From assembly GCF_003610735.1 (NCBI RefSeq), contig NZ_RAQM01000013.1, forward strand, positions 1-64,000: a stretch of 64,000 nt of DNA, given 5' to 3'. The stretch is from Tenacibaculum lutimaris (GTDB lineage Bacteria > Bacteroidota > Bacteroidia > Flavobacteriales > Flavobacteriaceae). The notes below the pieces were generated by a model. That model worked only from the letters and a program-made list of their open reading frames with translations. It did not search any database and was not told the origin of the DNA. Numbering within the stretch: the first letter of the stretch is position 1; the number at the start of each line of letters is the position of its first letter. The position numbers and the translations under genes are program-made. Positions 7,912 to 62,748 of the stretch are shown here, in pieces.

Positions 7912-9474
7912 ATGATGTTTAAAAAAATTGCTTTAAAAATTATACTATTGTATACAGTTATTGGCGTAGCTCAACGAAAAGTACAGATTGATTTTTCTCC
8001 TAAACTGAATAAAAAATACGAATATAGTACACACACCCACAGTAAGGTGTCTTCCCAAAAAATTACTACTAAAATAAAAAATACCATTTTATTTTCTAAA
8101 GAGAAAGAAAGCTATAAAGTACTACAAGAATTTACCGATGTTCAATTAATTGAGGGTGATGATCTTCTTTTCTTTCTAAATCAACCTGCTGACTCCGTTA
8201 GAGACTACAAAACTTATTCCCTAAAAAAGTTTTTAACTGAAAAAAAACTTTCCTTTAAACTTGATAATAATGGAAACATTATTCAAAATAATAATGATAC
8301 TTTCTTTGAAGAAACTCCTTTTTTAAAAAGAAGAGAAAAAAAGTTTTTTAAAGAATTTCTTAATAACTCTAGTCTTAATACTTTCAATTACTTTTCTGGT
8401 AAAACTTTCACTGTAGGCGAGTCTTTTACGATAAAAACTATTAATCAATATCATTTTGATAAAAATCAATCGGTTCAAGCAAAATTATTAGCTGTAGTTG
8501 ATAATAAGGCCATTTTTAAACTCTATTCTGAACCTTATACATTGGCTGAAAATGAAAATAAAGATTCTAATGAAATGGTGGGTATCTTTGTAATTAACAC
8601 TAAAGATGGTATGCCTTTACAAATGAGACTGTTTTTAAAGAATCATTCTCTAATTCTTAGGTTAAAAGGAGAACCTGAAGTTGACGTCGTTCAATTAAGA
8701 AAATCACATCTTTCTAGTGGAGATTACGAAATTACTAAGGTCCCTGAATTGTTAAAAAAAACTAACCGAGATTCTTTAATAACCTTTTACAGTAAAATCC
8801 TTTTTGATTCAAAGAAAACAGCAAAAACTACCTTGCAAAACTTGCAACCTCTTAGCTTAAACTATACTAAAAACTGTATTCAACTTAACTTGAATACGTA
8901 TACTAATTCTGCGCCTGTATTTATTAAAATAAAAAATATAAGAGCCTATAATTCTTCAAAAGAATTGATTCTTGAACAAAATGTTCATTTAGATTTTAAT
9001 CTTACTAATTATGAAGACTCTTCTATAAAAGAGCTTCCTATTGGTTACGAACTTTGCAAACTCCCCATTTCTTTTTTAGAAGTTGACATAGAATTACTAG
9101 CTCCTTATGGTGATACACAAATAATTTCTTTAACCCGTAAAAACAGTAAAAAGTACGATATCGTACAATGGAACGACAAAGACATTCAAACTCGAAATTT
9201 TGGTGATTTTCACATGTTTTATGATGAACATAAAAATATAGTTCCTATTAAGAAAATTATAGTTAAGGGCTATTCCTCTTCGCTTCCATTTTTAAAAGAC
9301 ACTAAAGAGCGAGAAATGCTACTTCTTTACTATAATTTATTAGATAATAGTGTTGATAATAGAGGATTCCATTTATACTTTGACAAAGAGATAAAATATA
9401 TAGACAAAATAGCGCCCAAAGGAGAATTTAAAGTTTCTAAAACCATAAAATTATCTGTTAAACAAGAAGAATAA
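7912..9474 (+). CDS. Secreted protein of unknown function
   Basis: 520 aa with a Sec-type signal peptide (Met-Phe-Lys-Lys, hydrophobic residues 7-20, likely cleavage after GVAQ or VA). The rest is beta-rich with many Lys and Asn and no motif I recognise. No lipobox and no T9SS C-terminal sorting domain is evident, so it is probably periplasmic. Two ATG codons are adjacent (7912 and 7915) and either could start it. It converges on trxB across a strong bidirectional terminator. Confidence 0.8.
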   Translation: MMFKKIALKIILLYTVIGVAQRKVQIDFSPKLNKKYEYSTHTHSKVSSQKITTKIKNTILFSKEKESYKVLQEFTDVQLIEGDDLLFFLNQPADSVRDYKTYSLKKFLTEKKLSFKLDNNGNIIQNNNDTFFEETPFLKRREKKFFKEFLNNSSLNTFNYFSGKTFTVGESFTIKTINQYHFDKNQSVQAKLLAVVDNKAIFKLYSEPYTLAENENKDSNEMVGIFVINTKDGMPLQMRLFLKNHSLILRLKGEPEVDVVQLRKSHLSSGDYEITKVPELLKKTNRDSLITFYSKILFDSKKTAKTTLQNLQPLSLNYTKNCIQLNLNTYTNSAPVFIKIKNIRAYNSSKELILEQNVHLDFNLTNYEDSSIKELPIGYELCKLPISFLEVDIELLAPYGDTQIISLTRKNSKKYDIVQWNDKDIQTRNFGDFHMFYDEHKNIVPIKKIIVKGYSSSLPFLKDTKEREMLLLYYNLLDNSVDNRGFHLYFDKEIKYIDKIAPKGEFKVSKTIKLSVKQEE

Positions 9475-9492
9475 AAAATGGTATTTTTCCAT

Positions 9493-9530
9493 AAAAAAAA
9501 GAGCTCTTAAATTAAGAGCTCTTTTTTTTT
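9493..9530. terminator. Bidirectional terminator between the secreted protein and trxB
   Basis: AAGAGCTCTTAA and TTAAGAGCTCTT form a near-perfect palindrome (about 9499-9522) with an A run on the left and a T run on the right, so it can end transcripts from both sides. Confidence 0.85.
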
Positions 9531-59882: not shown

Positions 59883-60755
59883 TTATTTTACAAGATTTAA
59901 AAGATATTGTCCGTAATTATTTTTCTTTAATGGCTCTGCTAATCTTTTTATTTGTGCTTCATCTATATACCCCATACGTAATGCTATTTCCTCTAAACAA
60001 GCTACTTTTAATCCTTGACGCTTTTCAATGGTTTCTATAAACTGACCTGCTTCCATTAACGAATCATGTGTTCCTGTATCTAACCAAGCAAAACCTCTTC
60101 CCATTAATTCTACTTTTAACTGCTCCTTTTCTAAATAATGTTGATTTACAGATGTGATTTCTAATTCTCCTCTTTGGGAAGGCTTTACATTTTTAGCCAC
60201 TTGAATTACGTCATTTGGATAAAAATACAGCCCTACAACAGCATAGTTTGACTGAGGATTGTTTGGTTTTTCTATGATTGAAATCGCATTTCCTTGCGTA
60301 TCAAAATCTACCACACCATAACGTTCAGGATCATTAACATAATACCCAAATACTGTTGCTTTGTTTTCTTGATCTACATTTAACCTAGCACTTTCTAACA
60401 TCTTTGTTAAGCCATGACCATAAAAGATATTGTCTCCTAACACTAAACACACATTATCATCCCCTATAAATTCTTCTCCTATTATAAAAGCTTGTGCTAG
60501 TCCGTCTGGTGAAGGTTGTTCAGCATAACTCAACTGAATTCCTATATCAGTACCATCTCCTAGTAATTTTTGAAAACTTGGTAAATCATTAGGTGTAGAA
60601 ATGATTAAAACTTCTCTAATTCCTGCCAACATTAATACCGATAAAGGATAATAAATCATTGGTTTATCGTATATCGGAAGTAATTGTTTAGATACTCCTT
60701 TTGTGATAGGATATAAGCGTGTACCTGACCCACCTGCTAGTATGATACCTTTCAT
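59883..60755 (-). CDS. rfbA: Glucose-1-phosphate thymidylyltransferase
   Basis: 290 aa nucleotidyltransferase that makes dTDP-glucose. [13 protein letters not shown] at residues 6-18, [28 protein letters not shown], and [13 protein letters not shown]. First gene of rfbACDB; its promoter must be between 60756 and the repeat island. Confidence 0.97.
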
Positions 60756-60909
60756 ATAGTAACTTTTAAATCGTTTGCTAATTTATAGAAAAAATAAAGC
60801 ATTAGCAGTTTTGATGTTTTAATTTTTAATTTTGAGTGAGTGATTCAAACAAAGTGGTGAAGAATTTCAAAAACCTTTAGTTCGATATAAAATTTGCTAC
60901 GATTAACCT

Positions 60910-61730
60910 AAAGATTTCTCTCTACGGTCGAAATGACGTGATTTTCTTTTATGTTGTTCATTTTTCCATTGATGAAAAAAGGAACCAAAAAAATCTAGAC
61001 TTATTTTCCTTTTTTTGAATTCTACGTTGTATTCAGTATTCGAATCCAGACCGTAAACTCTTTGGATTCTCTTGTACTCCATAACCTTGAATTCTACTAA
61101 AAGGAAAATAGGTCGGGTTGGTTTTGCGTTCTTATGCATGAGATTGCTTCTCCCGAAGTGTCGGGATCGCAATGACGTGATTTTCTTTTATGTTGTTCAT
61201 TTTTCCATTGATGAAAAAAGGAACCAAAAAAATCTAGACTTATTTTCCTTTTTTTGAATTCTACGTTGTATTCAGTATTCGAATCCAGACCGTAAACTCT
61301 TTGGATTCTCTTATACTTCATAACCTTGAATTCTACTAAAACGAAAATAGGTCGGGTTTGTTTTTTCGTTCTTATTCGTGTGGTTGCTTCTCCCGAAGTG
61401 TCGGGGTCGCAATAACAGTTTTTTATTTTTATCCTCCATTCATTTTTTGCTTGTCTAAAAAACGAATCAAAAAAGGATACTTTTTCAATATGATTTTTTG
61501 CTGTGCAGAACCGTACGCAAAACTTCGCGGTGTTTCACGACTGAATCTCGAAGCTTTTGCATACTATTCTTTGAAAAAGGGGATTTCTCCTTGCAGTCGA
61601 AATGACAAATAAAACATCATTTCGAACTGAGTTGTAACGAATACGAGAAATCTTATTAAAAGGAGTAACTCACGATTTTAAGATTTAACTACGCTGAACT
61701 TAAAGATTTCTCCCTACAGTCGCAATGACG
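60910..61730. repeat. Island of tandem and inverted intergenic repeats
   Basis: No intact gene in about 980 bp between rfbA and galE. A 239-bp unit occurs twice in tandem (60932-61170 and 61171-61410) with high identity. Short palindrome-like units of the GATTTCTC...GTCGAAATGACG or GATTGCTTC...TCGCAATGACG type occur at 60910-60938, 61140-61177, 61380-61417 (degenerate), 61580-61607, 61616-61656 (inverted) and 61702-61730. Short ORFs here are translations of these repeats. It resembles the CGTCATTGCGA...AAGCAATCTC type dispersed repeats of bacterial genomes. Confidence 0.8.
60932..61410. repeat. 239-bp direct tandem duplication
   Basis: Copy 1 at 60932-61170 and copy 2 at 61171-61410, both starting AATGACGTGATTTT and ending in a TCGGGxTCGC block. 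They differ at only a handful of positions, clustered in the last third. Confidence 0.85.
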
Positions 61731-61737
61731 TTTTAAA

Positions 61738-62748
61738 TTATGATTGTTTCTGTTGCCATTTCCACGCGGAAAGCAAGGCTTCTTCTAGTGTTTCTTCTGG
61801 TTTCCAACCTAGCACTTCATTTGCTTTGGTAGTATCAGCGTACGCTGCTGTAATATCTCCTTTTCTTCTCTCAGCAATTTTATAATTTAACGACTGTTGC
61901 GTCACATTTTCAAAGGAATGAATAATTTCCATTACAGAGCTTCCCTTTCCTGTTCCTACATTGAAAAATTCAAAATTCTCTTTATTTTGTTTGTCTAACA
62001 AACGTTGTAAAGCTTTCACATGCGCTTTTGCTAAATCAACCACATGGATATAATCACGAATTGCAGTACCATCTGGAGTTGGATAATCATCTCCAAAAAC
62101 TGCTAGTTCTTCTCTAATTCCTGCCGCTGTTTGTGTGATAAATGGAATCAAATTTTGTGGTATACTTAAAGGCAACTCTCCTATTTTAACAGATTTGTGT
62201 GCTCCTATAGGATTGAAATATCGTAAAGCTATGGCATTCATATTATATGCCTTACAACTATCTTTTATAATTTCTTCTCCTATCTGTTTTGTATTACCAT
62301 AAGGAGATTCAGCAATCTTTACTGGAGCGTCTTCTGTAATAGGTAACTCGTCTGCTTGTCCATAAACCGTACATGATGAGCTAAAAATAAAATGATCAAT
62401 ATTCCTATTTTTCATTTCTTGTAACAGATAAACTAAGGCGTTGATATTATTCTCGTAATAATCCAATGGCTTTTGAACACTTTCTCCTACAGCCTTAAAA
62501 GCAGCAAAATGTATTACTCCATCAATTGTACTATCATTAAAAAAGCTACGTACTGCTTTTTTATCTCGTAAGTCTATCTGATAAAAGTCTGGTTTAATAT
62601 TGGATATTTTAGTAATTTGTTCTAATACATCTATTTTAGAATTAGATAAATCATCGATAATCACTACCTCAAAACCTGAGTTTTGTAACTCTACTACGAC
62701 ATGAGATCCTATAAAGCCTAAACCGCCTGTTACTAGTATTTTTTTCAT
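61738..62748 (-). CDS. galE: UDP-glucose 4-epimerase
   Basis: 336 aa extended SDR. NAD-binding GGLGFIGSHV at residues 8-17, active-site YGNTKQIGEE (Tyr-Lys), SSSCTVYGQ, HFAAFKAVGESVQKPLDYYENN, and the GalE C-terminal substrate region. It provides UDP-galactose or UDP-GalNAc for the surface polysaccharide. It belongs to the same minus-strand polysaccharide locus as rfbACDB, but the repeat island probably separates their transcription. Confidence 0.96.
   Translation of the reverse strand: MKKILVTGGLGFIGSHVVVELQNSGFEVVIIDDLSNSKIDVLEQITKISNIKPDFYQIDLRDKKAVRSFFNDSTIDGVIHFAAFKAVGESVQKPLDYYENNINALVYLLQEMKNRNIDHFIFSSSCTVYGQADELPITEDAPVKIAESPYGNTKQIGEEIIKDSCKAYNMNAIALRYFNPIGAHKSVKIGELPLSIPQNLIPFITQTAAGIREELAVFGDDYPTPDGTAIRDYIHVVDLAKAHVKALQRLLDKQNKENFEFFNVGTGKGSSVMEIIHSFENVTQQSLNYKIAERRKGDITAAYADTTKANEVLGWKPEETLEEALLSAWKWQQKQS

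Follow-up and report, generated by a model that had tools for sequence, protein, structure and literature searches.

What occupies the 982 bp between an rfbA-like and a galE-like gene of Tenacibaculum lutimaris, and does it serve the sugar genes on either side? The window analysed here, a stretch of 64,000 nt, comes from contig C8 of a 2.87-Mb genome (14 contigs, 99.98% complete). A sequence-only reading had described six REP-like units in this gap and proposed that they were dispersed palindromic repeats moved by RAYT-type transposases, the cluster acting either as a recombination point for the exchange of surface-polysaccharide genes or as a transcription and mRNA-stability boundary. We find good support for describing this intergenic stretch as a mosaic of two non-coding hairpin repeat families (Table 1), which lies inside a run of co-directional genes, since rfbA and galE are both on the minus strand.

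Table 1. Features of the rfbA-galE interval, in window positions. Both window copies of the structured repeat went into building model R1.
Feature	Position	Strand	Basis and remarks
rfbA-like nucleotidyl transferase	59883..60755	-	PF00483, E 1.1e-77; orthologues adjoin galE in G017, G022 and G055; conserved flank
CGTC-tagged unit 1, pair type T/A	60913..60938	+	strict pattern
Structured repeat (CTTGAY-type element), copy 1	60954..61131	+	R1 175.2 bits; ssDNA fold z -3.51
CGTC-tagged unit 2, G/C, inner 6-bp stem	61142..61177	+	strict pattern; fold z -3.11
Structured repeat, copy 2, tandem duplicate	61193..61370	+	R1 170 bits; 97% identity to copy 1 over 198 nt
CGTC-tagged unit 3, decayed, GGTTGC...GCAATAAC	61382..61416	+	sequence reading; repeat family D3; fold z -3.73
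Sister structured repeat, with a related leader of 36 nt and a body of its own	61439..61581	+	family D4, 78% over 36 nt; fold z -2.42
CGTC-tagged unit 4, T/A, tag TGTC	61582..61607	+	strict pattern
CGTC-tagged unit 5, inverted, tag decayed	61616..61652	-	sequence reading; orthologous copies in G017 and G055
Spacer, 52 nt, inverted to direct unit	61653..61704	.	sequence reading; length as in fetched dimers of another genus
CGTC-tagged unit 6, T/C, pair broken	61705..61730	+	strict pattern; T/A in the G017 copy
galE-like epimerase	61738..62748	-	PF16363 and PF01370; conserved flank

All six units are there, four as strict matches and two decayed, within 60913-61730, and the one said to lie inverted opposite a direct unit is likewise present at 61616-61652, in decayed form. 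The strict pattern, GATTNCTN{8,24}TCGNAATGAC, matches the window only four times, at 60913, 61142, 61582 and 61705, always on the plus strand, against an expectation of 0.00 from 100 dinucleotide shuffles of the window. At their tag ends, units 1, 2 and 6 read ...AATGACG and unit 4 reads ...AATGACA, the other two being decayed; seen from the other strand, the tag is CGTC or TGTC. Folded alone as DNA, the four GATTTCTC-type window units do no better than their shuffles (z 0.33, -0.34, 0.87 and 0.21), and the two GATTGC-type units fold beyond theirs (z -3.1 and -3.7). The units at 61582 and 61705 are 123 nt apart, a distance comparable with that of tandem unit arrays in two species (G036 and G038; loci L187 and L190), where the spacing is mostly 122-125 nt.

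In the whole T. lutimaris genome the strict pattern has 61 matches, against 0 when read backwards, and 47 of the 58 genus genomes, T. lutimaris counted among them, hold at least one unit, which bears out the claim of dispersed REP-like palindromic units; because many copies are tandem relatives, such counts overstate the number of independent events. Per-genome counts are whole, and the individual matches listed are a part of the total, for the units in the genus and the order and for the 5'-domain pattern of the second repeat (below) in Bacteroidota. Unit number rises with genome size (rho 0.50-0.59; 0.59 in all 58 genus genomes). One stem position changes in step with its partner: base N of GATTNC is complementary to N' of CGN'AATGAC in 56 of the 61 T. 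lutimaris units, the window unit at 61705 being one of the five exceptions, and all four pair types are present (GATTAC...CGTAATGAC, GATTGC...CGCAATGAC, GATTTC...CGAAATGAC and GATTCC...CGGAATGAC). Among fetched loci, complementarity at this position holds for 50 of 55 units in T. lutimaris and 162 of 170 in other genus genomes, where column composition alone predicts ~32% and ~38%, respectively. Viral contigs carry at least 120 stretches with a unit, and complementarity extends to 155 of 186 units among the matches listed from them.

CGTC units often stand in inverted pairs, and certain spacer lengths are preferred. Six genomes of another genus (G317, G267, G180, G204, G272 and G184) were chosen for showing this spacing: there, 12 of the 13 close minus/plus pairs among the matches listed have a 52-nt spacer (77 nt from start to start), and the remaining pair, in G180, has starts 54 nt apart. 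The 12 dimers fetched (L468-L479), each ~102 bp, sit in differing surroundings, and their arms are exact or near-exact reverse complements that co-vary between copies; one dimer of this other genus folds with z -11.9. The decayed dimer of the window, from the inverted unit ending at 61652 to the next unit starting at 61705, folds weakly (z -1.67). Among 59 minus/plus pairs in fetched T. lutimaris and genus loci, spacers of 26, 29 and 16 nt are commonest (9, 8 and 7 pairs), and a 52-nt spacer was seen four times.

The mover proposed for these units, a RAYT, fits the T. lutimaris genome poorly: PF01797 (Y1) has 0 matches there. Across the genus it matches in 30 of 58 genomes; among the 45 that are near-complete, 31 are unit-rich (at least 10 units), and a Y1 match in 20 of these speaks for RAYT mobilisation, as does the resemblance of the units to REPs and of the dimers to REPINs, whereas the other 11 have none. 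Genome G056 carries 11 Y1 matches and no units, and the reverse is seen in G021 (71 units) and G029 (67 units), neither of which has a Y1 match. Nor are Y1 genes flanked by units beyond chance, since the 33 Y1 loci read (29 distinct places) include three with a generic CGTC unit, chance-like by eye, and 27 of 400 random 2.4-kb windows contain one. Y1 and unit numbers show a weak positive correlation over all 58 genus genomes (Spearman 0.30, p 0.02; 0.24, p 0.11 in the 45 near-complete ones), weaker than the one between genome size and unit number. CGTC REPs were reported by Di Nocera et al. 2013 without transposase association, and in that naming paper their mover is left open (PMC3733652). 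For the T. lutimaris genome the RAYT reading is largely refuted, and we regard RAYT-mobilised REPs as a very unlikely account of the units; a RAYT may once have been present and later lost from this genome.

IS110-family (bridge-RNA) elements offer another account: they would recombine or land at the units, and such recombination would have built the mosaics. One relative, G029, has 14 IS110 matches, of which 13 copies were fetched (L512-L515 and L574-L581) and 11 have readable ends; in all 11 the right end adjoins the rest of a CGTC unit (junction TCA-TTNCGA...), and the abutted units include types G, T and A. With its first bases, GTCATCC, the left end is itself unit-like, so that the element apparently contributes the tag end of the unit. 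Judged from these junctions, CGTC units appear to be IS110 landing pads in this relative, and its insertions provide a direct test case for bridge-RNA targeting of CGTC units; IS110 members, including PivNM in Neisseria, have been reported in REPs (PMC1525189). Over the 58 genus genomes, having an IS110 match is associated with having at least 10 units (15/34 against 3/24, Fisher p 0.02; Spearman 0.29, p ~0.02), but the link fades in the 45 near-complete ones (14/31 against 3/14, p 0.19; Spearman 0.16, p 0.31), in G036, G040 and G013 the IS110 ends that were compared, all only roughly located, showed no unit, and G056 has at least 53 matches and no units. The T. lutimaris genome, with its 61 units, has no match to PF01548 (IS110), so IS110 landing does not explain how the units spread in such a genome, and we think it rather unlikely that units and mosaics in general are to be understood in this way. 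RAYT and IS110 were both rejected as movers in the T. lutimaris genome, as it matches neither profile, and the candidates are narrowed by this; the PF01797 and PF01548 searches, and the Y1 and IS110 loci themselves, yielded no mobilising enzyme.

The spacers between the units were overlooked by the sequence-only reading, and they hold the second family: they are copies of a structured repeat of ~150-200 nt. Overlooked too was a direct repeat of 198 nt, 97% identical and with 239-nt spacing (60928-61125 and 61167-61364), which belongs to this family. The sister repeat downstream has 12 nhmmer matches, nearly all in T. lutimaris and G017. In 59 distinct copies covering at least 140 model positions, taken from the window and fetched genus loci, the second repeat has sharp ends. 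Twenty-nine base pairs are predicted from 25 aligned copies, 16 of them with a double compensatory change, and 95.3% of cells are paired, a figure favoured by the structure having been derived from the same alignment; the covariation score is 0.399, where shuffled alignments average 0.125 (0 of 500 reach the observed value) and slid ones reach at most 0.092. The R1 model matches in 32 of 58 genus genomes, most often in G029 (24), G009 (18) and G047 (13), and in 21 of the 296 genomes of the order, stricter filters in searches over more than 40 genomes having lost weak members. There are three copies in the T. lutimaris genome, and the third (G000:C3:299578-299764) adjoins another unit array. 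Both window copies are hit by R1 on their opposite strand as well (44.3 and 42 bits), which is what near-palindromic DNA would give. The commonest form in the genus, the window included, has the loop CATTGAT and the partner ATCTAG, and the loop contact in this form is putative because, by our own reading, these two pair less well. Rfam 15 returned only tRNAs at gathering thresholds over the window; with relaxed thresholds, 60760-61737 yielded a single sub-threshold match (19.8 bits, E 0.3, at 61451-61492), and 11 distant loci yielded matches only in other parts of L429 and none to the second repeat, which was found neither in Rfam 15 nor in our literature searches.

Distant copies share a common plan: a hairpin with a CTTGAY loop (in most lineages), an A-rich linker, an RTCAAG sequence complementary to the loop, and then a rod. 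A pattern for the 5' domain, CTTGAYNNAAAAN{2,12}AAAARTCAAG, matches 65 of 395 Bacteroidota genomes with up to 50 copies (G367), and five genomes match its reversed control, once each. We scanned for elements with the last loop base left free and a perfect 5' hairpin required, so that the hairpin stem is itself no evidence, and compared that base with its partner in 92 distinct elements, many of them at loci fetched through the Y/R pattern and several from one genome: the two are complementary in 90 (T/A 72, C/G 16, A/T 2), the others being C/T and C/A, one each. Triplets in P2 agree as well (GGC/GCC 25, GAC/GTC 22, GTC/GAC 3), a count biased by an arm search that prefers matches and on which we do not rely. 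Single-strand folds of two distant copies give z -5.1 and -8.0. Among distant copies, those at L564 and L573 included, the apical part frequently has the form AACTCG-hairpin-CTCAAACAG or one akin to it, like a conserved internal loop. An autonomous, gene-bearing form was sought and rejected, as by our criterion a distant 3' partner occurs in 0 of the 92 elements, many at loci with only ~1.5 kb of flank; nor does any second repeat lie within the 52 IS110 and 33 Y1 loci, a set with some overlaps.

The two families often share sites. A generic CGTC unit lies within 300 bp of 37 of 58 second-repeat copies, compared with 72 of 600 random windows that were themselves drawn from loci picked for repeats or rfbA, and in near-complete genus genomes the families co-occur (24/31 against 4/14, p 0.003), an association that genome size confounds. 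They are separable nonetheless, since 21 genomes of the order have the second repeat and 11 of these lack a strict unit.

Position and base pairing bear on whether the repeats work as DNA or as RNA. Relative to their upstream and downstream genes, 55 copies of the second repeat are opposite/opposite in 20 cases, same/same in 16, same/opposite in 10 and opposite/same in 9, with none inside ORFs; at distant loci, two elements among 63, counted without de-duplication, fall within a predicted ORF, and orientation to genes is again inconsistent. In the alignment, G-U and A-C cells number 15 each once a single invariant G-U pair is set aside, and 40 against 15 with it, an excess of the kind that a role as RNA predicts. 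Inconsistent orientation, equal G-U and A-C cells and R1 matches to both strands favour a structure that would be maintained at the DNA level. A role as RNA, whether as terminators, mRNA stabilisers or small RNAs, would sit well with the strong structure of the second repeat, its invariant G-U pair, the folding of two of the six window units and a lean towards G-U among the N/N' mismatches of T. lutimaris and genus units, read on the CGTC-first strand (9 against 1); that lean is absent, however, in viral-contig units (5 against 6 among the matches listed), orientation to genes is not consistent, Rfam 15 gave no match to the repeats, and the single terminator-like match, near chance (shuffles 0.5, sd 0.8), sits inside the sister repeat and not in a unit. 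We consider such a role, and with it the proposed transcription and mRNA-stability boundary, unlikely.

To place the cluster in its gene neighbourhood, we fetched 20 loci around rfbA from 19 genomes. In T. lutimaris, G017, G022 and G055, the genes rfbB, rfbC, rfbA and galE are kept together with the outer lysM and guaA, so gene content is largely conserved on both sides and the suggested break point does not hold in these four genomes; the other 16 are uninformative on the cluster because they have neither galE on that side of rfbA nor strict units in the stretch fetched. The rfbA-galE gap itself is filled in T. lutimaris and in G017 (~990 bp), holds a three-unit remnant in G055 (~370 bp) and is without repeats in G022 (~80 bp). 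The same modules occupy two further gaps in G017: ~715 bp between rfbC and rfbD (L254, ~8791-9506), where T. lutimaris has 6 bp, and ~480 bp between rfbB and lysM (L254, 11418-11902), where it has 142 bp. Elsewhere, locus L254 contains a CCTTCGACTACGCTCAGG repeat and a unit whose stem is of a different type, GATCCTGA...TCAGGATGAC. By protein identity G017 is closest at most of these genes and not at galE, so the difference could reflect a gain in the T. lutimaris/G017 line as well as a loss in G022, the latter because the relatives compared are different species.

Could the cluster nevertheless be a recombination point for surface-polysaccharide genes, as proposed for repeat arrays in Neisseria, where arrays of dRS3 and RS have been suggested to raise exchange at surface genes (PMC3898611)? 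It does stand in an rfb locus, gene content beyond galE differs between genomes, and, beside copies of the second repeat in distant genomes, glycosyltransferases and nucleotide-sugar epimerases account for 4 of 10 neighbour proteins scanned (L564, L569 and L570). But both immediate flanks are conserved in the four genomes with and without repeats, and capsule-type proteins make up only 2 of 20 genus neighbours scanned, both beside L285; we hold an exchange point here to be extremely unlikely. The other genus neighbours include a helicase, a HAD hydrolase, a photolyase, a histidine kinase, a TonB receptor and methylases, among others, and a general link to polysaccharide genes was rejected on this variety, which is smaller in the few distant loci scanned. 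The nearest named records to galE are from Tenacibaculum agarivorans (77%) and a Polaribacter (76%), and 80 named galE loci contain 0 strict CGTC units. For the rfbA/galE pair itself the cluster looks incidental.

The explanation that we think probable is that two families of non-autonomous, DNA-level hairpin repeats settled between conserved genes and were spread in trans by an enzyme other than a RAYT. The CGTC-tagged REP-like units, found elsewhere as inverted dimers with preferred spacers, would be one family, and the 150-200-nt element, with its 5' hairpin, A-rich linker, RTCAAG opposite the loop and long rod, would be the other. Their identity, copy number, covariation and tandem repetition, and their presence or absence at this site, rest on direct observation. 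How they spread we infer: both would move as DNA, probably through folded single strands, with an enzyme acting in trans that is not a RAYT, and arrays would then grow by tandem duplication, leaving repeats without a dedicated role for the sugar genes.

A wider reading, which we put forward tentatively and with some doubt, is that the second repeat is a Bacteroidota-wide mobile element in which a CTTGAY loop pairs with RTCAAG, as a pseudoknot or switch, next to a rod, that it moves as folded single-stranded DNA, and that it shares mosaics with the CGTC units on which IS110 elements land. If true, orphan CGTC REPs and CTTGAY elements would share an ecology based on single-stranded DNA. The larger repeat combines strong covariation with occurrence from genus to phylum, and annotation is likely to miss it, given its absence from Rfam 15 and from the literature found. 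What the analysis chiefly contributes is this unlisted repeat with its structure, together with the exclusion of the transposase that would have been expected.

Other dispersed structured repeats, MITEs among them, are short, non-coding, multi-copy and intergenic, with structured ends. The second repeat is like MITEs in each of these respects; it is unlike them in its conserved loop-partner complementarity and rod architecture, and our searches found neither a parent transposon nor an Rfam match. For the smaller units, a literature search for palindromic intergenic repeats in Tenacibaculum found none, searches with unit and repeat strings returned only seemingly unrelated content, and RepRanger 2025 gives REP counts for Flavobacterium (PMC12306157). 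The published description of CGTC-tagged REPs comprises four families with an unpaired CGTC, TGTC or CCTC tag at one end, a stem of 8-9 bp whose first two positions are a complementary AT, a loop of 4-5 nt and a 3-nt CCA tail (PMC3733652). Our units share with them the CGTC/TGTC tag, the terminal AT (GAT...ATGAC, present in strict matches by construction because the search pattern fixes it), intergenic position, inverted pairing, occurrence in Bacteroidetes and the lack of a dedicated transposase, there being no Y1 in the T. lutimaris genome. Unlike those families, they have a 5-bp stem (ATTNC/GNAAT), long variable loops, no CCA tail, frequent clusters and four pair types at one stem position, and because stem, loop and tail differ we regard them as a variant of the CGTC-tagged REP superfamily and not as a published family.

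Where they form inverted doublets with set spacers, as in the other genus, in which one dimer folds strongly into one long hairpin, the units also resemble REPINs as described with their RAYTs (Bertels and Rainey 2011, PMC3116915); the inverted pair of the window, which folds only weakly, may or may not be of this kind. From REPINs the units differ in their tag and in a T. lutimaris genome without a RAYT. The window mosaic (60913-61730) is similarly like the neisserial intergenic mosaic elements, in which short palindromes lie among repeats of 30-160 bp in arrays 200-2700 bp long (PMC3898611). Unlike dRS3, which reads ATTCCC(N8)GGGAAT in that account, the window units read ATTNC...GNAAT with other interiors, and unlike those of the neisserial arrays, the larger repeats here are highly structured.
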